A stretch of 41,168 nt of DNA, from the NCBI RefSeq assembly GCF_944380975.1, contig NZ_CALWJK010000018.1, positions 1 through 41,168 of the forward strand, read 5' to 3'. Positions 10,019 to 39,675 of this stretch are shown here, piece after piece. The notes beneath the pieces were generated by a model that was given only the letters and a program-made list of their open reading frames with translations, made no database searches and was not told the DNA's origin. This DNA is from an uncultured Agathobaculum sp. Its GTDB lineage: Bacteria > Bacillota > Clostridia > Oscillospirales > Butyricicoccaceae. Both the position numbers and the translations under genes were made by a program. The stretch's first letter is position 1, and every line of letters begins with the position of its first letter.

Positions 10019-10999
10019 TCAGTCCACACCCGGGAACACGATGCCCGCATCCTGCCGCGCGCGCTCGAGCAGCTCCATCATTTGGATGGTTTTCTCCATC
10101 CGGCGGCGGCAGTCCGCGCGGTCATCCGCCGCAACCAGCCCCGCGATACCCTGCATTTCCCAGTACCACGCGGTTTCGCCCTGCTGCTCATCAAAAACCT
10201 GCTCGCCCTCGTCGGTCACGACCGTGACGCGCGTGCACATGCTGACCGGGTTTTCCACCCGGATAAAGCCCTTTTCTCCGATGATGTGCGCGCCGTTTTC
10301 GCTTTTGCAGTCCTTTGCGCCCGTACACTGGGCGACAAAACCCGGATATTCCAGCACCGCAACGCCGCCGAGATCGATGCCGTTCTCGTGCCGCCGTGCG
10401 TGGTAGGTCAGTTTGTCCGGCATGCCGAACAGACCGTACACAAAATACAGGTTGTACAGGTTGATATCCATAAGCGCGCCGCCCGCAAAGACAGGATTGA
10501 ACACATTGGGCGTCTGTCCGGCTTTCAGCGCATCGTATTTGCTCGAATACTGGCAGAAGGTACACGACACCTGCCGCACCGGCCCGATTTCGACCAGTTT
10601 CTCACGGATGCGCGCGAAATGCGGCAGAAACAGGGTCGTGATACCCTCAAACAGGAACAGTCCCTTGTCCTCGGCGAGCGCAGCCAGCTCCTCCGCCTGC
10701 GCGCGGGTCGGCGCGAACGGCTTTTCGCAGATGACATGCTTGCCGCTTTCCAGCACTGCCTTGGTCTGCGCATAATGCAGGCTGTTGGGCGAGGCGACAT
10801 AAACCCAATCGATTTCCGGGTCAGCCAGCATGTCCTCCAGCTTGGTATATACCTTGCCCACACCAAAGCGTTCCGCAAGGGCACGCCCGGTTTCTTCCTT
10901 GCGCGAGCAGACTGCCTCATAGGTCACGCCCGCCACGCGCACTGCTTCCGTCATCACCCATGTTACGATGTTGCCCGTTCCAATCGTTCCGATTTTCAT
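10019..10999 (-). CDS. Gfo/Idh/MocA family NAD(P)-dependent oxidoreductase
   Basis: A 326-residue protein with an N-terminal Rossmann fold (KIGTIGTGNIVTWVMTEA) and the family motif HVICEKPFAPTRAQAEEL near residue 90, where EKP holds the catalytic Lys. A C-terminal alpha/beta substrate domain begins at GPVRQVSCTFCQYSSKYDA. Members act on sugars, inositols and related polyols; the substrate here cannot be read from sequence. The ATG at 10997-10999 has AGAGG 8 nt upstream; the longer frame has no SD. It has its own promoter and no sugar-catabolic neighbours. Confidence 0.88.
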   Translation of the reverse strand: MKIGTIGTGNIVTWVMTEAVRVAGVTYEAVCSRKEETGRALAERFGVGKVYTKLEDMLADPEIDWVYVASPNSLHYAQTKAVLESGKHVICEKPFAPTRAQAEELAALAEDKGLFLFEGITTLFLPHFARIREKLVEIGPVRQVSCTFCQYSSKYDALKAGQTPNVFNPVFAGGALMDINLYNLYFVYGLFGMPDKLTYHARRHENGIDLGGVAVLEYPGFVAQCTGAKDCKSENGAHIIGEKGFIRVENPVSMCTRVTVVTDEGEQVFDEQQGETAWYWEMQGIAGLVAADDRADCRRRMEKTIQMMELLERARQDAGIVFPGVD

Positions 11000-19910: not shown

Positions 19911-19987
19911 AAAAAGCCGTCACTTTCGTGACGGCTTTAGCTGGTGGGGTTGGCGGGGCTCGAACCCACGACCTCTCGCGTGTGAGG
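19911..19987. other. Left attachment repeat (attL): tRNA-Val 3' part plus its terminator
   Basis: These 77 bp match 31699-31775 with one mismatch (19940 G versus 31728 A). The block holds the tRNA terminator hairpin and the 46 bp of the tRNA-Val 3' portion (19942-19987), through the anticodon arm. The sequence then diverges, so this copy is not a functional tRNA. This is the hallmark of a tyrosine-integrase element that integrated into the tRNA and carried a replacement 3' end. Confidence 0.92.
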
Positions 19988-24955: not shown

Positions 24956-25035
24956 CCTTTCGCTTTAGTTACTTTTACTATTGATATTAAAAGGAACTAA
25001 CAAATCGGGATAATAGCAAATGCAAATTGTTGGTG

Positions 25036-25065
25036 TTGCCCTATCTCTACTTTCTGTGGTATGAT
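25036..25065 (+). promoter_or_regulatory. Promoter of the restriction-modification pair
   Basis: TTGCCC (25036-25041), 18-bp spacer, TATGAT (25060-25065). A TATAAT at 25074-25079 offers a second -10 with a poor -35. The start point near 25072 leaves a very short leader before AAAGGGGG. Confidence 0.5.
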
Positions 25066-25095
25066 ATTATTGATATAATCAAAGGGGGACTCACT

Positions 25096-25770
25096 CTGCA
25101 ATTCGAACAATATATTGATGCCGATCTGCTCTCCAGATTTGAATTTCACAATTACGGACACGCCTTAGAGATACTGCATGACGCTTTTCCGCAGGAATGG
25201 GAAGAACTGCAGGACTGCTTGCGCAATATCAGCATTTCTATTGCAGATATCAAAAAAGCAGGAGGAAATAAGTCTCCCATCCCAAAGAAGTTTGATGACC
25301 TGCTTTATCCCTGTGGCTGGCGGGAAATCCGCATAAGCGGAGACTTGACTGTAAAAAAATATCCTCGAAAATCCAAGCATCATATGGGAAGTTTCGCAAA
25401 AAATCCAAAGGAAGAAGAAACCATTAGGGGATATATTGATGGGCATAACATTGATTTCCTAAAAAACCGTGTGGCGTTCGATCTGGAGTGGAACAGCAAG
25501 GATCAGACCTTTGACCGTGACCTGCTCGCCATGCGCACCTATTTCGATTGCGACTTAATCGACGTTGGCGTCATTGTCACCCGCTCGGAAGAACTAAACG
25601 AAATTTTTAGATCGCTCACCGATAAAAACGGCAAGCCGCTGATAAAGAAATACGGTGCGAGCACGACTTGGATGGGCAAGCTGATCTATCGATTGGACTC
25701 CCGCCGCGGCGGCGGCTGTCCCATTCTCGCTGTCGGCATAAGAAAGGGCTGCATACAAGACTATGGCTAA
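25096..25770 (+). CDS. Type II restriction endonuclease, BglII/BstYI family
   Basis: About 224 residues. The core VAFDLEWNSKDQTFDRDLLAMRTYF (about 140-165) is the BglII/BstYI-family catalytic region, followed by DVGVIVTR and the C-terminal KYGASTTWMGKL and GGGCPILAVGI blocks. Relatives cut GATC-centred sites (AGATCT, RGATCY); specificity here is not readable. There is no ATG. AAAGGGGG lies 7 nt before CTG (25096-25098), which is the best start. The upstream TTG at 25027 precedes the promoter. It overlaps the methylase gene by 8 bp. Confidence 0.85.
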   Translation: MQFEQYIDADLLSRFEFHNYGHALEILHDAFPQEWEELQDCLRNISISIADIKKAGGNKSPIPKKFDDLLYPCGWREIRISGDLTVKKYPRKSKHHMGSFAKNPKEEETIRGYIDGHNIDFLKNRVAFDLEWNSKDQTFDRDLLAMRTYFDCDLIDVGVIVTRSEELNEIFRSLTDKNGKPLIKKYGASTTWMGKLIYRLDSRRGGGCPILAVGIRKGCIQDYG

Positions 25771-26416
25771 TACAAAAACCAATCAAAACCTGATGCGGTT
25801 TGCAGCAGGTCAAAAATTCAATACCATCTATGCCGACCCGCCTTGGCAGTTTCAAAACCGTACTGGCAAGGTCGCACCTGAGCACAAGCGGTTAACGCGA
25901 TACGAAACCATGACGCTCGATGATATTAAGGCGCTACCTGTTGCAGATATTGCGGGTGAAAAAGCCCACTTATATCTTTGGGTGCCCAACGCACTGCTTC
26001 CAGATGGACTTGCCGTTATGGATGCATGGGGCTTTGAATATAAAGCCAACATTATCTGGGAAAAGGTACGCAAGGACGGCGGTCCGGATGGCCGCGGCGT
26101 TGGCTTTTATTTCCGCAACGTAACGGAAATGCTGCTGTTCGGTATCCGCAAAAACAGCACTCCCAACCGCACGCTTGCACCTGCACGTTCGCAGGTGAAT
26201 ATCGTCCGCTCCATGAAGCGCGAACATAGCCGCAAGCCGGACGAAATCATTCCGATTATTGAAGCATGCAGCAGCGCGCCCCGCATTGAACTGTTTGCCC
26301 GCGGCGTCCGAGATGGCTGGGCCATGTGGGGCAATCAGGCTTCCGCAGATTATGAGCCAACTTGGAACACCTACGCCAATCACACGATCGCAGCGCGAGC
26401 CTGTGCCGCCCGCTGA
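25763..26416 (+). CDS. MT-A70 family adenine DNA methyltransferase
   Basis: A 217-residue methylase with the DPPW motif (YADPPWQFQNRT, about residue 24). The MT-A70 blocks HLYLWVPNALLPDGL, GFEYKANIIWEK and KPDEIIPIIE follow. It should methylate adenine in the site cut by the partner nuclease, protecting host DNA. The ATG lies in the nuclease stop region (ATGGCTAA overlap) with no strong SD, so translation depends on the upstream gene. The pair runs opposite to the phage genes around it. Confidence 0.87.
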   Translation: MANTKTNQNLMRFAAGQKFNTIYADPPWQFQNRTGKVAPEHKRLTRYETMTLDDIKALPVADIAGEKAHLYLWVPNALLPDGLAVMDAWGFEYKANIIWEKVRKDGGPDGRGVGFYFRNVTEMLLFGIRKNSTPNRTLAPARSQVNIVRSMKREHSRKPDEIIPIIEACSSAPRIELFARGVRDGWAMWGNQASADYEPTWNTYANHTIAARACAAR

Positions 26417-27976: not shown

Positions 27977-28183
27977 TTACCCCGCCTCCTTTTCCGCATC
28001 GTCCGCGTACAGCTCGTCGATCGTGCAGCCAAGGAAGGCTGCGATCTTCGGAAAAAAGCGCGGGCGCGGATATGTGCCCTCTGCTTCCCATTTGGTGACC
28101 GTGCTGCGATCTACACCCAGCGCGTCGGCCATGGCCTGCTGGGTCGCGCCAATCGCTTCGCGTTTGGTCTGGATAGATTTCAT
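27977..28183 (-). CDS. XRE-family helix-turn-helix regulator (Cro-like)
   Basis: 68 residues. The helix-turn-helix is TQQAMADALGVDRSTVTKWEAEG (about 14-36), followed by RPRFFPKIAAFLGCTIDELY. There is no effector domain. The ATG at 28181-28183 has AAGGGGTG upstream; the longer frame from 28228 has no SD and would cross the dyad. Its position in the leftward operon suits a Cro-type or accessory phage regulator. Confidence 0.85.
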   Translation of the reverse strand: MKSIQTKREAIGATQQAMADALGVDRSTVTKWEAEGTYPRPRFFPKIAAFLGCTIDELYADDAEKEAG

Positions 28184-28213
28184 CGTTTTCACCCCTTTCT
28201 TGTGGTTGCTTGC

Positions 28214-28251
28214 CCTTTCCCACTCCATGTGTTACCATGAAATGGGAAAGG
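28214..28251. promoter_or_regulatory. Large dyad between divergent regulator genes
   Basis: Two 16-bp arms (28214-28229 and 28236-28251) pair at 14 of 16 positions around a 6-bp spacer. The outer 9 bp (CCTTTCCCA/TGGGAAAGG) are perfect. The right arm includes the start of the SD for the 28262 gene. It could be an operator for the adjacent XRE protein or an RNA hairpin that hides that SD. Confidence 0.6.
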
Positions 28252-28538: not shown

Positions 28539-28590
28539 CCCCTCTCACCTCCTTTTCTTTTTGCGACGTTACTTCTCATTTCATGTTTGC

Positions 28591-28619
28591 ATTATAGCGA
28601 CTTTACTTCACATTGTCAA
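28591..28619 (-). promoter_or_regulatory. Leftward phage promoter (PL-like), exact consensus
   Basis: On the minus strand TTGACA (28614-28619), 17-bp spacer, TATAAT (28591-28596), a perfect sigma-A promoter. It points into the 47-residue gene, the XRE gene and on to the terminase genes. It is divergent from the repressor promoter 28 bp away and is probably the repressor target. Confidence 0.85.
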
Positions 28620-28646: not shown

Positions 28647-28675
28647 TTGAAACGTGAATTTTCTTCACCTATAAT
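28647..28675 (+). promoter_or_regulatory. Repressor promoter
   Basis: TTGAAA (28647-28652), 17-bp spacer, TATAAT (28670-28675). The SD AGGGTGAT and ATG follow at once. Confidence 0.85.
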
Positions 28676-28693: not shown

Positions 28694-29038
28694 ATGAATA
28701 ATCTTCGATCTGTTCGCAAATCCGATCCAAGAAAATTAACTCAGCAAGATCTCGCCGATTGGCTCGGCATTGAGCGATCAACATACGGCAAATACGAAAC
28801 CGGACATAGCGAACCAACTTTTGATACCCTATGCCGTTTAGCAGATTTCTTTAACGTATCTGTTGAATACCTTATGGGACGAACAAACATAAAAAAAACG
28901 CCTATCTCCAAAGAGACAGACGTTTCTGAGGTGTGGGCTGAAGCGCAGCAATTATTAGAAAATGCTCCACCTGATAAAGCAAAAGAGGCTATGAAGATTT
29001 TGAGGGTGCTATTATCTCCTGAAGAACATGAAGAATAA
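28694..29038 (+). CDS. XRE-family phage repressor (CI-like, no protease domain)
   Basis: 114 residues. The helix-turn-helix is LTQQDLADWLGIERSTYGKYETG (about 15-38), followed by LCRLADFFNVSVEYLMGR. A short acidic helical tail (VWAEAQQLLENAPPDKAKEAMKIL) is probably for oligomerisation. There is no S24/LexA-type self-cleavage domain, so RecA cannot inactivate it directly. Its promoter is divergent from the strong leftward promoter. Its 3' end overlaps an opposing LexA-controlled small ORF. Confidence 0.88.
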   Translation: MNNLRSVRKSDPRKLTQQDLADWLGIERSTYGKYETGHSEPTFDTLCRLADFFNVSVEYLMGRTNIKKTPISKETDVSEVWAEAQQLLENAPPDKAKEAMKILRVLLSPEEHEE

Positions 29039-29105
29039 GAACGGCAGCGGCAGCCGGATTTGCTGTTTGCTTTGCTAATCTTTTTAATTCTTCCATCTCT
29101 TTCAT
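28989..29105 (-). CDS. LexA-controlled 38-residue ORF antisense to the repressor, candidate antirepressor
   Basis: 38 codons, starting MKEMEELKRLAKQTANPAAAAV, with a hydrophobic helix (AAAAVLILHVLQEIIA) in the second half. AAAGGGAGGG lies 7 nt before the ATG (29103-29105). A full sigma-A promoter overlapped by a perfect LexA box precedes it. The last 50 bp are antisense to the repressor gene end, and the transcript would run further into it. By analogy with Tum of coliphage 186 it may inactivate the repressor on DNA damage; no homology is claimed. Confidence 0.6.
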   Translation of the reverse strand: MKEMEELKRLAKQTANPAAAAVLILHVLQEIIAPSKSS

Positions 29106-29124
29106 TTATCAGCCCTCCCTTTAT

Positions 29125-29172
29125 CGAACATGTGTTCGTTTTCATAATACACCACATGTTGATTCTTGGCAA
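29125..29172 (-). promoter_or_regulatory. LexA (SOS) box and promoter of the small antisense ORF
   Basis: On the minus strand TTGCCA (29167-29172), 17-bp spacer, TATTAT (29144-29149). A perfect palindrome CGAACATGTGTTCG (29125-29138) covers the transcription start. This matches the Gram-positive LexA/DinR consensus CGAAC-N4-GTTCG exactly. Confidence 0.85.
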
Positions 29173-29245
29173 GGAGCAATGCAAGATATTGTAACTATTT
29201 TATAAAATACCGATGTTCAAATTGAATGCTAAGGAGGCTTGTATT

Positions 29246-30184
29246 ATGGGGCTTTTCTCTTTTCTGTTTCCTCGCGAAACCGATGTGCGGCGAGGGACAA
29301 AAACCGTTATTTGCCCTGTATGTATGCAAGAATATCCGGTCAGCTATGTCTCATGGAGCGGGATATGTAATAACTCTTCTGCACTTTTGCGCGTGCCACT
29401 TGAAACACGAGAAGAGAGAGACCCTTCTATTCGCAATAAATTTGATTGGGAAAATATGTGGTCGGTTTCGCCTACGGGCATTACCTATCCACATGACAAA
29501 AGCGATCCGCAGCAAGTCATTCCGCATCTCTATGTAACCCAACAGGTGTTTTTCCACTGGGACAAAAATAATGCTGTTGATCCAACCGCCCTAAAAATAT
29601 TTACTGCTGATGAGAAATACATCGGCTGGTATCCGAAAACAGGATATCGAAAAGCAGAAGTGCTGCAAATGATCGAGCAGCGCAAACCTTTTGGTGTATT
29701 TATCATCAAAACCTATCAGCATCAGGACGGGGTTTGGGGCTACAATATTGCGATCGCGCCACCACGACCCAACATTCCCCTAGAAACGCTTCCTGTACCT
29801 GTGTTCCGCTATGAACAATCCAAGCCTTATTATGACGCTTTTATGCAAGCCCTTTATCAAAGCGGTGTTATCCATCTGGACTGGATCACATTTACAGAAA
29901 GCGCAGATTCTCTTACTTTCCAGATTGGTAAAACCGCATTTTGCACGGTAAAATACGCGGGACGGCTTACATACTGTACAAGCCTGCGTCCTGTCGAGCA
30001 ATGCGCAAAGGAGCTGCCCGACTATGTCGTTGAGCAATCCCCCAAATCATTTGGAATATTCAAAAGTCGCATCTCGATCCAAAGCCCAGACGATGTGACC
30101 AAACTTAAAGATTCTATTTTTCGTGACTTTCAAATCGTTACTGACGAACTCCGTGCCCATGGGCAGAGCATCCGGCCAAATTGA
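29246..30184 (+). CDS. Unrecognised protein with HIRAN-like segment, candidate defence or lysogenic-conversion gene
   Basis: 312 residues. The N-terminus has a hydrophobic start (MGLFSFLFPRE) and a zinc-ribbon-like VICPVCMQEYP with one clear CxxC. The middle segment VDPTALKIFTADEKYIGWYPK resembles the HIRAN fold found with DNA-processing enzymes. The C-terminal 150 residues are unrecognised. AAGGAGG lies 8 nt before ATG 29246-29248. It lies between repressor and integrase on the integrase strand, a usual site of phage cargo. Composition is AT-rich, as for the Abi and R-M genes. No catalytic motif is visible. Confidence 0.75.
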   Translation: MGLFSFLFPRETDVRRGTKTVICPVCMQEYPVSYVSWSGICNNSSALLRVPLETREERDPSIRNKFDWENMWSVSPTGITYPHDKSDPQQVIPHLYVTQQVFFHWDKNNAVDPTALKIFTADEKYIGWYPKTGYRKAEVLQMIEQRKPFGVFIIKTYQHQDGVWGYNIAIAPPRPNIPLETLPVPVFRYEQSKPYYDAFMQALYQSGVIHLDWITFTESADSLTFQIGKTAFCTVKYAGRLTYCTSLRPVEQCAKELPDYVVEQSPKSFGIFKSRISIQSPDDVTKLKDSIFRDFQIVTDELRAHGQSIRPN

Positions 30185-30277: not shown

Positions 30278-30335
30278 AAAGATGGAGTGTTTCACAATTC
30301 TCCGCAATCATTATACATGATTAGTGAAATTTGTC

Positions 30336-30382
30336 AACTGCAGACCACAACCGAACACCGTTCTCTTGTGGTCTGCAGTTTT
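30336..30382 (+). terminator. Long hairpin terminator before the integrase
   Basis: Perfect 15-bp stem AACTGCAGACCACAA/TTGTGGTCTGCAGTT with a 15-nt loop, followed by TT. It separates the integrase from upstream transcription. Confidence 0.7.
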
Positions 30383-30396
30383 ACGCCCCAATAAAC

Positions 30397-30410
30397 CGAA
30401 CAAATGTTCT
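30397..30410 (+). promoter_or_regulatory. LexA-like box upstream of the integrase
   Basis: CGAACAAATGTTCT, with the full GAAC-N4-GTTC core, lies 10 bp before the integrase SD (AAGGAGG). I cannot identify a convincing integrase promoter, but the box position fits SOS control of integration and excision. Confidence 0.55.
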
Positions 30411-30434
30411 AAATCTGTGCAAGGAGGCCGCTTC

Positions 30435-31559
30435 ATGCCCGAGCAAACCAAGAAAAAATACACCTACAAATACGTCAAGGCGATCACGGTCGGGCATAAG
30501 CCGGACGGCAAGCCGATCCGCAAGTATATCCGCGAGAACAACAAAGCGGTCTTTGAGCAAAAGGTGCGCTACTACCAAAACCTTAATGCCCGCGGCGTGC
30601 AGATCGTCGGCCGATCGCTCACGGTAGAGCAATGGGCGTGGCAGTGGTATCACACGTACAAAGAGCCAAAGATCGGCGCGAGCCAGCGCATTGACTACGA
30701 AACCAACCTGCGACGCCATATCCTTCTGGTGATCGGGTTCATGGCGCTGACTGCCGTGCGGCCGTACCACCTGCAGCAGCTCGTCAATGATGCCCGGCGT
30801 GAGGACGGCCAGCCGCTGGCGCAGGGTACGGTGCGGCAGATCCTGTACACGCTGCGGCAAATCTTCGAACAGGCCGAGATCAATGGTTTGATTGAGGTCA
30901 CGCCCTGCCGCCGCATCGAAAACACCGCGACCGGCAAGGCGGCGCGGCGTGCGCTGACCCGCGAGGAGGAGGCGCTCGTCCGCAAGGTAGCCGCTCAGCA
31001 CTGGGCGGGGCCATGGGTGCTGCTCATGCTGGACTGCGGCCTGCGGCGCGGCGAGACCGTGCCGATCGGCAAGGCCGACCTGTGCAAGGACGGCACGATG
31101 CTGCGGATCAGCAGCGCCGTCACCTACGCCGAAGGCAATCAGGCCAAGCGTAAAAGCACCAAGACTGCGGCCGGGGAGCGATTTGTCCCTATGCCGCCCG
31201 CGCTGCTTGCACAGTTGGACACCTCCGGCCGGTACTTCTTCCATGGGCAAAATGGCAGGATGCTCACGCTCACCCATCTGCGCCGCATGTGGGGCAGCTT
31301 CCACCGTGCATGTGACCGGGAAGCCGGTGCCAAGCTATACCGCAATAAGATCATAGAGCATGCCTTTGATCCGACGATCACACCCCACTATCTCCGGCAC
31401 ACCTATTGCACCAACTTGCGCCGTCAGGGCGTCGACCTAAAAACCGCGCAATATCTCATGGGACATGCCAGCATCACCACCACGGCGAATATCTACGACC
31501 ATGTAGACATGGACGACATCGCTCAGCTCGGTCTGCACAAAACGTCAAAACAGGCGTGA
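30435..31559 (+). CDS. int: Tyrosine-type integrase
   Basis: 374 residues: a basic N-terminal arm-binding region (MPEQTKKKYTYKYVKAITVG), a SAM-like core-binding domain (about 55-160) and the catalytic domain. Catalytic pieces are GLRRGE (first Arg), TPHYLRHTYCT (H-x-x-R), MGHAS and the nucleophile in NIYDHVD. The ATG (30435-30437) has AAGGAGG upstream; the frame further 5' crosses the terminator and LexA box. It lies next to the tRNA-Val target, as expected for the enzyme that integrated this element. Confidence 0.93.
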   Translation: MPEQTKKKYTYKYVKAITVGHKPDGKPIRKYIRENNKAVFEQKVRYYQNLNARGVQIVGRSLTVEQWAWQWYHTYKEPKIGASQRIDYETNLRRHILLVIGFMALTAVRPYHLQQLVNDARREDGQPLAQGTVRQILYTLRQIFEQAEINGLIEVTPCRRIENTATGKAARRALTREEEALVRKVAAQHWAGPWVLLMLDCGLRRGETVPIGKADLCKDGTMLRISSAVTYAEGNQAKRKSTKTAAGERFVPMPPALLAQLDTSGRYFFHGQNGRMLTLTHLRRMWGSFHRACDREAGAKLYRNKIIEHAFDPTITPHYLRHTYCTNLRRQGVDLKTAQYLMGHASITTTANIYDHVDMDDIAQLGLHKTSKQA

Positions 31560-31698: not shown

Positions 31699-31775
31699 AA
31701 AAAGCCGTCACTTTCGTGACGGCTTTAACTGGTGGGGTTGGCGGGGCTCGAACCCACGACCTCTCGCGTGTGAGG
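31699..31775. other. Right attachment repeat (attR)
   Basis: Direct repeat of 19911-19987 with one mismatch. It holds the tRNA terminator (AAAGCCGTCAC/GTGACGGCTTT, 31701-31726) and the tRNA 3' portion. Here it continues into an intact tRNA, so the element supplied a replacement for both the tRNA end and its terminator. Confidence 0.92.
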
Positions 31776-31806
31776 CGAACGCTCTGACCAGCTGAGCTAC
31801 AACCCC
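31730..31806 (-). tRNA. tRNA-Val (anticodon CAC)
   Basis: 77 nt on the minus strand. Acceptor stem GGGGTTG/CAACCCC, D stem GCTC/GAGC, and anticodon stem TTCGC/GCGAG around CTCACAC, giving CAC, which reads GUG. The T arm has TTCGAGC and CCA is encoded. It is intact and serves as the integration site. It is followed by the 31701-31726 terminator. Confidence 0.95.
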
Positions 31807-38691: not shown

Positions 38692-39585
38692 TTATGCCGT
38701 AAACAGCTGCGCCCAATACGCGGTGCCGCCCGATACCGTATAGCCAACGCCGATGGTCGTAAAATTCTCATTGAGGATATTCGCGCGGTGGCCGGACGAG
38801 TTCATCCATGCCTGCACCACCTGCTGCGGTGTCGACTGGCCGTAAGCGATGTTCTCGCCCGAACGGGTATAGGACACGCCAGCCTCAGTCAGTGCGGTCG
38901 AAAAGGAAGAGCCATTCGGCCGCGTGTGCGAGAACGACTGTACCGTTTCTTTCGCGCGCACCTGTGCCGCCTGCTGCACGCGGCTGTCCACCTTCAGCGC
39001 GGACAGGCCGTATTTGGCGCGCTCTGCATTGACCAGCGCCACAACCTGCGATGCATAGTCCCCCTGTGAAGCGTCGTTGTCCTCCTCCGGAGTCTGCTCC
39101 GGGGTGTTGTCCGGGGTTTCCTCCGGGCGGTTGTCATCCGGCAGCTGCGGCGGATTGTCTGGCGTCTCTTCCGGCTGCTCTACGTCCGGTGTCTCCTCCG
39201 GCTGCTCGACATCCGGGGTCTCCTCCGGCTGTTCTACATCCGGCGTCTCTTCCGGCTGTTCTACGTCCGGCGTCTCTTCCGGCTGCTCGACGTCCGGCGT
39301 CTCTTCCGGCTGCTCGACGTCCGGGGTCTCCTCCGGCTGTTCTACATCCGGTGTCTCTTCGGGTGTTTCCTCCGGCTTTTGCTCGGGGCGATTTCCCGGG
39401 AATTGACCGCACAGGAATGCAAAATACTTGTCCAGCAGATTCTGACGGAAACCGGAATCACACATATAAGAATACACATCGGACGGGCTGATTTTCTTCT
39501 CCAACGGCAGATTTGCCGCGCCCGCGACTGCGGTAGTCGTGATCACCGCGGCCAGCGCCAGCGGTACAATTTTCTTCAGCTGCAT
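38692..39585 (-). CDS. Secreted CAP-domain (SCP/PR1) protein with PEETPDVEQ repeats
   Basis: 297 residues. The signal peptide (MQLKKIVPLALAAVITTTAVAGA) is followed by a short domain and an acidic, Pro-rich spacer with seven PEETPDVEQ units (about 80-142). A C-terminal CAP domain follows with the typical FSHTRPNGSSFSTAL, GENIAYG and NSSGHRANILNENFTTIGVGY blocks. This resembles Bacillus YkwD-type secreted proteins. AAGGAGG lies 9 nt before the ATG (39583-39585). The spacer probably reaches through the cell wall. Function is unknown. Confidence 0.9.
   Translation of the reverse strand: MQLKKIVPLALAAVITTTAVAGAANLPLEKKISPSDVYSYMCDSGFRQNLLDKYFAFLCGQFPGNRPEQKPEETPEETPDVEQPEETPDVEQPEETPDVEQPEETPDVEQPEETPDVEQPEETPDVEQPEETPDVEQPEETPDNPPQLPDDNRPEETPDNTPEQTPEEDNDASQGDYASQVVALVNAERAKYGLSALKVDSRVQQAAQVRAKETVQSFSHTRPNGSSFSTALTEAGVSYTRSGENIAYGQSTPQQVVQAWMNSSGHRANILNENFTTIGVGYTVSGGTAYWAQLFTA
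39161..39349 (-). repeat. Seven tandem 27-bp coding repeats
   Basis: Seven in-frame 27-bp units encode PEETPDVEQ, with third-position differences between units. Near-identical neighbouring units make copy number likely to vary between strains. Confidence 0.85.
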
Positions 39586-39645
39586 GATATGTAACCTCCT
39601 TGGTTTGCTTTTGCTCTTTCTGGTGCCCTTTGCACCATGTACCAG

Positions 39646-39675
39646 AGTATAGCGTGCTTTGTAACCATTTTGCAA
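39646..39675 (-). promoter_or_regulatory. Promoter of the CAP-domain gene
   Basis: On the minus strand TTGCAA (39670-39675), 18-bp spacer, TATACT (39646-39651). Confidence 0.6.

Follow-up and report, generated by a model that had tools for sequence, protein, structure and literature searches.

In this work, we examined a stretch of DNA of 41,168 nucleotides from an uncultured Agathobaculum sp. (RefSeq assembly GCF_944380975.1, contig NZ_CALWJK010000018.1, positions 1 to 41,168; hereafter, the window), which carries an integrated prophage element with a repressor gene of the XRE family. Facing this gene and running into its 3′ end is a micro-open reading frame (micro-ORF) of 38 codons, preceded by a promoter and a LexA box. 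As judged from sequence alone, the locus is probably a LexA-controlled antirepressor gene of the SinI-like kind, nested antisense in the 3′ half of the repressor gene. The features on which this reading is built are as follows, where HTH stands for helix-turn-helix and AF2 for AlphaFold2.

28694..29038, plus strand: XRE (HTH_3) prophage repressor, 114 residues (ORF, Pfam, AF2)
28989..29105, minus strand: micro-ORF, 38 residues, proposed LexA-controlled antirepressor (ORF list, conservation, selection, AF2)
29144..29172, minus strand: sigma-A promoter of the micro-ORF, TTGCCA-17-TATTAT (sequence)
29125..29138, minus strand: LexA (SOS) box CGAACACATGTTCG, over the expected transcription start
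29114..29119, minus strand: Shine-Dalgarno (SD) sequence GGGAGG, 8 nt ahead of the ATG (29105)
28894..28927, minus strand: intrinsic terminator of the micro-ORF transcript, 15-bp stem and T run (free energy (dG) −20.1, z-score −5.8)
28922..29014, plus strand: codons of a predicted C-terminal helical hairpin of the repressor (AF2), proposed as oligomerisation hook and peptide target

On the minus strand, the −35 hexamer TTGCCA (29172-29167) and the −10 hexamer TATTAT (29149-29144) are separated by a 17-bp spacer, and 5 nt downstream of the latter lies the box, a perfect CGAAC-N4-GTTCG palindrome. An initial annotation of this DNA had called the promoter, the perfect palindrome, the SD, and the 38-codon ORF, and their sequences and coordinates proved correct; likewise, the limits of the two ORFs (28989-29105 and 28694-29038) confirm that the micro-ORF faces the repressor gene and overlaps its last 50 bp. 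By itself, the LexA box is little proof, since the genome holds four perfect boxes as compared with nine for a reversed control pattern, and it is the context that weighs more. In the 41-kb window, the box of the micro-ORF is the only one free of mismatches, and boxes with up to two mismatches occur there at chance level (23 found versus 23.2 expected). The host genome encodes both LexA (TIGR00498) and RecA, with a box ahead of lexA (GGAACATACGTTCG) and another ahead of recA (CGAAAATTTGTTCG), each one mismatch away from the consensus. Moreover, the window's pattern of box, SD, and ATG recurs in 13 of the 291 genomes of the class (14 places), and that of the reversed control in three genomes. 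When seven such places besides the window ORF were run against Pfam, they gave one RecA, three DinB-type polymerases, and one LysM protein, with no family match for the other two.

We found the same arrangement conserved in the genus. A profile of the repressor matched eight places in seven of the 87 genomes of the family (E ≤ 1e-15), and six of these, namely the window and the loci in genomes G009, G015, G018, G005, and G020, share two features beyond the repressor stop: a LexA box with at most one mismatch at 74-88 bp and, at 55-67 nt, a micro-ORF that converges on the repressor gene. These six genus loci are related to each other, the nearest coming from records named Agathobaculum; hexamers and spacings were tabulated for five of them, and the G020 locus was read by hand. 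Among these loci, the SD and ATG of the micro-ORF are conserved, and the promoter is kept as TTGCCA with GGTGTATT in the window, G009, G018, and G020, and as TTGACA with TATTAT in G015. By eye, the peptides fall into three families (38-53, 54, and 48 residues), which are paired with three different repressor C-termini. The promoter, box, SD, ORF, and terminator, as well as their conservation, can be read directly from the DNA. The two remaining profile places, both in G046 from another genus, have no such box and micro-ORF; one (L598, identical to L014) has a Peptidase_S24 domain and the other (L600) is an 88-residue frame with no tail by eye.

Homologues of the window peptide were found in three of the 87 family genomes, and a peptide profile gave matches in 10 of the 394 genomes of the order at E ≤ 0.01. 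Among the matches listed, we find those in the window genome and G015 convincing and no others; the remaining eight genomes, like a further place in G015, have E-values of 0.0025-0.008 with partial coverage or stops, and we put these down to chance. The window peptide has no match in Pfam or PHROGs at E values up to 1, and the ten other micro-ORF peptides have weak matches or none in the same two databases. Four peptides searched against 50,697 phage records gave no match, the peptide profile found nothing among PDB sequences, and the L351 peptide gave only noise.

Beyond the genus, the arrangement recurs in viral loci. Five pattern scans of viral contigs for the LexA box provided at least 550 loci with at least 664 perfect boxes, and XRE genes were sought in them with a profile built from the loci in hand, which had themselves been fetched for the box. 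Among the box loci listed, there are 76 distinct XRE ORFs in 55 loci, and for 21 of the 76, at 19 loci, a perfect box lies no more than 250 bp from the 3′ end, as compared with a mean of 2.3 and a maximum of 9 in 2000 rotations, a null model that does not include intergenic preference. On the 5′ side of XRE genes, the corresponding count is four versus 2.5. Here, L123 and L312 each contribute two of the 21 genes to one box, and L320, L382, L541, and L579 have a 3′ box but yielded no case with a small ORF. As a case, we counted a perfect box situated −60 to 400 bp from the XRE 3′ end, together with a small ORF with an SD. Antisense cases of this sort are L086, L106, L123, L139, L307, L312, L351, L446, and L457, with L114 and L267 being doubtful, and there are two same-strand cases (L093 and L336), in which the micro-ORF with its LexA box lies right behind the repressor. 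In L086, L093, L123, and L139, where several ORFs or XREs share a box, one was kept by hand, and because the same-strand ORF of L093 was chosen for its likeness to the repressor, L093 and L336 stand outside the antisense-only tests. The duplicates L316 and L353 (of L312 and L351) were dropped, L436 and L459 were not taken, and box-XRE pairs of other geometry were left out (L107, L176, L179, L182, L195, L223, L276, L283, L321, L335, and L340). The peptides of L093 and L336 both carry an LTEEEQ motif.

The terminator lies 61 nt beyond the micro-ORF stop, and on the other strand its bases are read as repressor linker codons (about residues 67-78), around the stretch where the AF2 model is least certain (69-76). 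Counted from the micro-ORF start, each of the six genus loci has such a terminator at +178 to +187 (dG −14 to −25). That of G009 is nearly identical to the window's and those of G015, G018, G005, and G020 differ in sequence; by eye, the stems of G018 and G005 keep their pairing through changes on both sides. A terminator on the micro-ORF strand was detected in 11 of 15 non-doubtful antisense cases versus 3 of 55 XRE genes lacking a 3′ box (Fisher p 2e-7), the stretch scanned in these controls being of similar rather than equal length. Against the same controls, the count is 8 of 12 (p 1e-5) with each genus peptide family taken once, and 12 of 19 (p 7e-7) over all cases. Selection on the micro-ORF was gauged in codons outside the repressor overlap with one-sided Fisher tests. 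In the trio of the window, G009, and G015, whose comparisons share sequences, nonsynonymous versus synonymous values are 0.08 versus 0.29 (p 0.065), 0.31 versus 0.63 (p 0.025), and 0.26 versus 0.64 (p 0.005), and for G018 and G005 they are 0.34 versus 0.89 (p 0.002). Nonsynonymous change is therefore below synonymous change in all four comparisons, three of which share sequences, and this we take as a sign of purifying selection on the micro-ORF. Together, the terminator and the selection on the ORF point to a short peptide mRNA as the product rather than a long antisense RNA.

As for the repressor, its significant Pfam matches are to HTH families and Peptidase_S24 is absent from its 114 residues, which bears out the earlier statement that it lacks a self-cleavage domain. 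The AF2 model consists of an HTH domain and a C-terminal two-helix hairpin (residues 77-89 and 93-107; predicted local distance difference test (pLDDT) score of about 61-65), with the lowest confidence at residues 69-76 between the two. The peptide model (three sequences, mean pLDDT 83.7) has helices at residues 2-13 and 17-32, such that two-helix hairpins of similar length are predicted for the peptide and the repressor tail. In Foldseek, the best matches of the repressor are 9iaq and 9sf2 (E 2.6e-3 to 3.8e-3), which are repressors of small-antirepressor arbitrium phages; with the phi106 repressor, the sequence match is confined to the HTH region.

The peptides also tend, statistically and across the set of cases, to resemble the tail of their own repressor. 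For this comparison, 40 peptide residues were aligned with 50 repressor-tail residues (BLOSUM62, gap 11/1), and in the 14 independent antisense cases, the doubtful L114 and L267 retained, the cognate scores sum to 359 and those of permuted pairs to 294.9 (standard deviation 17.7; p 0.001). The permutation p is 0.0024 when G015 and G005 serve as the representatives, and it becomes 0.0008 for the 16 independent cases that include the same-strand ones and 0.0002 for all 19; an earlier version of the test (gap 8/1, 17 cases) agrees with the one run at gap 11/1 on 19 cases. Taken singly, five of the 19 pairs have a shuffle p below 0.05 (G015, G018, L086, L093, and L139). The mean score for shifted frames of the same DNA is 17.4 versus 27.5 for the real frame.

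The reading of the locus as we propose it runs as follows. In the undisturbed lysogen, LexA on the box over the start site would keep the micro-ORF off. After DNA damage, RecA would become active and LexA would be cleaved, and a short mRNA of about 250 nt would be made, ending at the terminator in the repressor's linker codons. The 38-residue two-helix peptide may then bind the two-helix hook at the repressor's C-terminus and displace a repressor partner, much as SinI does with SinR. With the repressor oligomer lost, the early promoter (28619-28591) would open and the prophage would be induced. LexA binding, peptide synthesis, peptide-repressor binding, and induction are all steps that we infer. 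The immunity region in which this would take place contains the following further features.

28591..28619, minus strand: early (PR-like) promoter TTGACA-17-TATAAT (sequence), presumed target of repression
28647..28675, plus strand: putative repressor promoter TTGAAA-17-TATAAT (sequence)
28565-28577, 28599-28611, and 28656-28668, no strand assigned: three 13-bp direct repeats, candidate operators
27977..28228, minus strand: second XRE protein, 83 residues, in a Cro-like position and presumably with that role (ORF, Pfam)

Here, the second of the 13-bp repeats lies inside the early promoter and the third inside the repressor promoter.

Several observations weigh against this reading. Fourteen of the 19 peptide-tail pairs are not significant on their own, the window pair included (shuffle p about 0.55), and a peptide's own tail is the best scorer outside its own family in only 6 of 19. 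In some cases a foreign tail outscores the own one, as in L336 (64 versus 30), L351 (49 versus 21), and L312 (47 versus 20). In L114, L123, L267, and L312 the real frame is equalled or outscored by a shifted one, and the shifted frames in general carry an X at stops, which depresses their scores. An hhalign comparison of the genus peptide with the repressor profile was negative (probability 0.5%), and Foldseek finds no match for the peptide model. The Foldseek E-values of the repressor are themselves weak (none ≤ 0.001), with a root-mean-square deviation of about 10 over the full length. Moreover, the terminator went undetected in four of the 15 antisense cases, and in L123 and L457 it sits at the ORF stop, where it could equally serve the repressor transcript. 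Finally, the arrangement is not universal, as L018, L019, and L020 have tails that look hairpin-like by eye and no box nearby.

A peptide could also act as an antirepressor without mimicking the hook, by binding the HTH domain or some other site of the repressor, just as Mor binds the HTH domain of CI in TP901-1. We consider this doubtful, though it deserves more weight than the other alternatives: neither the window pair nor most of the single pairs show significant similarity, and the small phage antirepressors studied by others are, in the part of PMC10432266 available, without homologues or predictable domains. What speaks for a mimic instead is the set-wide resemblance of cognate pairs along with the matching two-helix predictions, as well as the joint exchange of peptide and repressor C-terminus, which the overlap on the same DNA partly forces. 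Another explanation places the effect in the RNA, with convergent transcription and antisense pairing to the 3′ end of the repressor mRNA cutting repressor synthesis after damage. In fact, the promoters face each other and the transcript would be able to pair over about 150 nt with the repressor 3′ end (29038 to about 28886), and an RNA effect could add to that of the peptide. Yet, the ORF is under apparent purifying selection with its SD and ATG conserved, the terminator halts the RNA short of the HTH-coding part, the L093 and L336 cases are not antisense, and reduced synthesis would presumably act only as fast as the repressor dilutes or is degraded; as the main effector, then, the RNA is unlikely. 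The initial annotation had proposed a damage switch acting on a non-cleavable repressor through the peptide, the antisense RNA, or both. Its main point is probably right, given that conservation, module exchange, and recurrence elsewhere all favor the small gene, and it is the antisense-RNA part, in the face of the terminator, the purifying selection, and the two non-antisense cases, that appears unlikely.

Two further explanations do without an antirepressor altogether. The early direction is that of the minus strand, on which further ORFs lie downstream (28538 to 26587), and the LexA promoter might be a bypass that reads through the repressor gene into the early operon and drives the lytic genes directly. 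We dropped this idea as hardly credible because of the strong terminator 61 nt past the ORF stop, which has equivalents in the corresponding position in five relatives, four of them different in sequence. The ORF might otherwise encode an SOS-induced, host-directed small protein that merely adjoins the repressor gene, i.e., a toxin or a division inhibitor, for which TisB and YneA are examples. It is small and apparently LexA-controlled, and a gene with the same box pattern in L616 encodes a LysM protein. Despite this, we regard a host-directed role as very improbable: boxes by the 3′ end of repressor genes are found again in unrelated elements, the ORF sequence changes together with the repressor tail and has no family match, and its helices appear on reading to be charged and amphipathic, unlike a membrane helix.

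The antirepressor reading has precedents. Small LexA-controlled proteins that inactivate a non-cleaved repressor include Tum of phage 186, AntC of N15, and GfoA, GftA, and GfhA of Gifsy phages (PMC3121763, the part available), and the idea of a wholly new kind of switch, as entertained in the initial annotation, does not hold. Like these, the window has a promoter under a LexA box, with LexA binding predicted here, and a repressor without an autocleavage domain. It differs in having its gene placed antisense within that of the repressor, and in a Gram-positive host. The Gifsy antirepressor gene lies outside the immunity region, whereas the window gene overlaps the repressor gene, a difference of layout and not of function. 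For the Tum and Gifsy proteins, the available part of PMC3121763 reports no likeness to the repressor's own tail.

A parallel in architecture comes from Bacillus subtilis, where residues 74-111 of SinR form a C-terminal two-helix hook with which SinI residues 3-39 pair via conserved core residues, and where the SinI-SinR heterodimer abolishes DNA binding (PMC3163267, the part available). The same architecture is predicted for the window repressor and peptide. Unlike the window locus, SinI-SinR is a biofilm switch under Spo0A control, and the Pfam SinI family matches neither the window peptide nor the ten other peptides. The sinI gene is, moreover, a separate and non-antisense one. Another small antirepressor, AimX of phi106, is bound to an XRE repressor in PDB 9sf2 (2026 entry; cf. 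9iaq), as given in the accessible part of the record, and its gene may be controlled jointly by SOS and arbitrium (PMC12768286, citing Aframian 2022; available in part). The phi106 repressor ranks among the top structural matches to that of the window, at the weak E-values mentioned, and the control by AimR/AimP sets the system apart. No phage record was found by tblastn with a fragment of the phi106 repressor; in phage phi105, which was read in its place, a metalloprotease gene follows the regulator in the repressor position. The transcription factor-small ORF modules of Vibrio and other phages (Qtip and others) likewise comprise small proteins that are unrelated to one another and that each inactivate their own repressor, though these are SOS-independent and activated by the neighboring transcription factor (PMC10432266, the part available). 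We found no description of LexA-controlled micro-ORFs nested antisense in repressor genes among the open-access titles and abstract openings listed, most subscription journals being outside this scope. What is known, then, is the LexA-controlled small antirepressor and the SinI-like mode, the latter probable for our locus, and what is new would be the antisense-nested, swappable cassette.

Within the same HTH family, other loci have different induction modules in place of the box and micro-ORF. The S24-domain relatives (L014, identical to L598, and L015) show no LexA box by the 3′ end of the repressor gene. Nor is there a 3′ box in L029 and L030, two near-identical IMG/VR loci with 72% identity over residues 1-71, where a gene for an M78 (ImmA-type) protease stands directly behind the repressor (confirmed by Pfam for L029). 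An ORF with an HEXXH motif beside the repressor is present in L029, L030, and L027, and none was found in L012, L013, L597, and L599. From the box, S24, and M78 loci, we conclude that one DNA-binding family uses three alternative induction modules. The ImmR/ImmA and S24 modules act by proteolysis, not by a binding peptide. Among 17 loci from a scan of named genomes, three have the box and micro-ORF module (L011, L012, and L013, which are G009, G015, and, by position, G018), and the other 14 have no such box and ORF, with L023 having a one-mismatch box 346 bp away. In viral contigs, the repressor alone as query found no relative, and a three-row repressor profile found three. A perfect LexA box was noticed in the IMG/VR locus L276 (11201-11733), 167 bp behind an XRE gene and directly ahead of a protease gene of the M78 (ImmA-like) type; this is possibly a LexA-controlled ImmA and, as such, a fourth induction layout.

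More tentatively, with odds somewhat below even, we propose that the arrangement is a cassette in which one stretch of DNA encodes the repressor's oligomerisation hook and the other strand a LexA-controlled microprotein that mimics this hook and disrupts it, with the terminator set in the linker codons. Such a cassette might be a third widespread route of damage sensing in Gram-positive prophages besides self-cleaving repressors and ImmA proteases, and it might have arisen or been exchanged many times, with peptide and hook co-evolving. Since several peptides score better with foreign tails, we lowered our confidence in this proposal slightly. Some prophages respond to DNA damage though their repressors have no cleavage domain, and the cassette offers a lead to their trigger. 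Its signature is searchable, i.e., a LexA box 40-200 bp past the repressor stop, a converging micro-ORF, and a terminator in the linker codons, and it predicts that the specificity of the peptide is tied to the repressor tail. The locus would also be a compact case of two proteins encoded on both strands of the same DNA and probably binding each other, and the cassettes would supply short peptides of natural origin with which gut prophages could be switched in the laboratory.

The element that carries the locus measures 11.8 kb between two direct repeats (attachment sites, att), and is delimited as follows.

19911..19987, no strand assigned: left copy of the 77-bp direct repeat (att; repeat search)
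31699..31775, no strand assigned: right copy of the 77-bp repeat, overlapping tRNA-Val (31730-31806)
30324..31559, plus strand: tyrosine integrase of the element (Pfam)

Apart from the integrase and the repressor region, its genes include a small terminase subunit and a methyltransferase with a weakly matched restriction enzyme, and there are also a weak tail match (PHROGs, E 0.01) and an amidase-like ORF by eye. No large terminase, portal, or tape-measure gene was noticed in the element's ORF list, of which only part was searched. The window element is probably a remnant, and the switch may here control only excision and the leftover genes. On the G015 contig, portal, sheath, tape-measure, ParA, ParB, helicase, and integrase genes lie beside the same module, along with a 91-residue match to a large terminase subunit; the module is thus found in a fuller prophage as well.

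Some other genes and loci deserve mention. Just inside the left att repeat, the minus-strand stretch 20230-20955 matches AbiD in PADLOC (E 7e-15) and is a probable abortive-infection gene carried by the element. At 25027-26416 (plus strand), the MT-A70/type II DNA methyltransferase is preceded by the protein with weak restriction-enzyme matches, and the two are likely a restriction-modification pair. Between the repressor and the integrase, a 323-residue protein is encoded at 29213-30184 (plus strand) that has weak matches only (PADLOC PDC-M03B, E 1e-5); near this position, a different gene is found in G009 and G015, which by eye resembles a lipoprotein ORF. Elsewhere, a further perfect LexA box with a TATTAT −10 hexamer lies on contig C6 of genome G000 (10031-10044; L001:1501-1514, L612), ahead of an ORF of 78 residues that has no family match. 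The next gene encodes a small protein of 118 residues with a sigma-70 region 4, and the locus could possibly specify an SOS-controlled sigma-like regulator. In the IMG/VR locus L176, a perfect LexA box (12783) precedes a 386-residue ORF that is integrase-like by eye, which suggests a possible SOS control of integration or excision. Lastly, outside the element at 38692-39675 (minus strand), the window encodes a long run of EETPDVEQP repeats followed by a C-terminal domain that appears CAP/SCP-like by eye.
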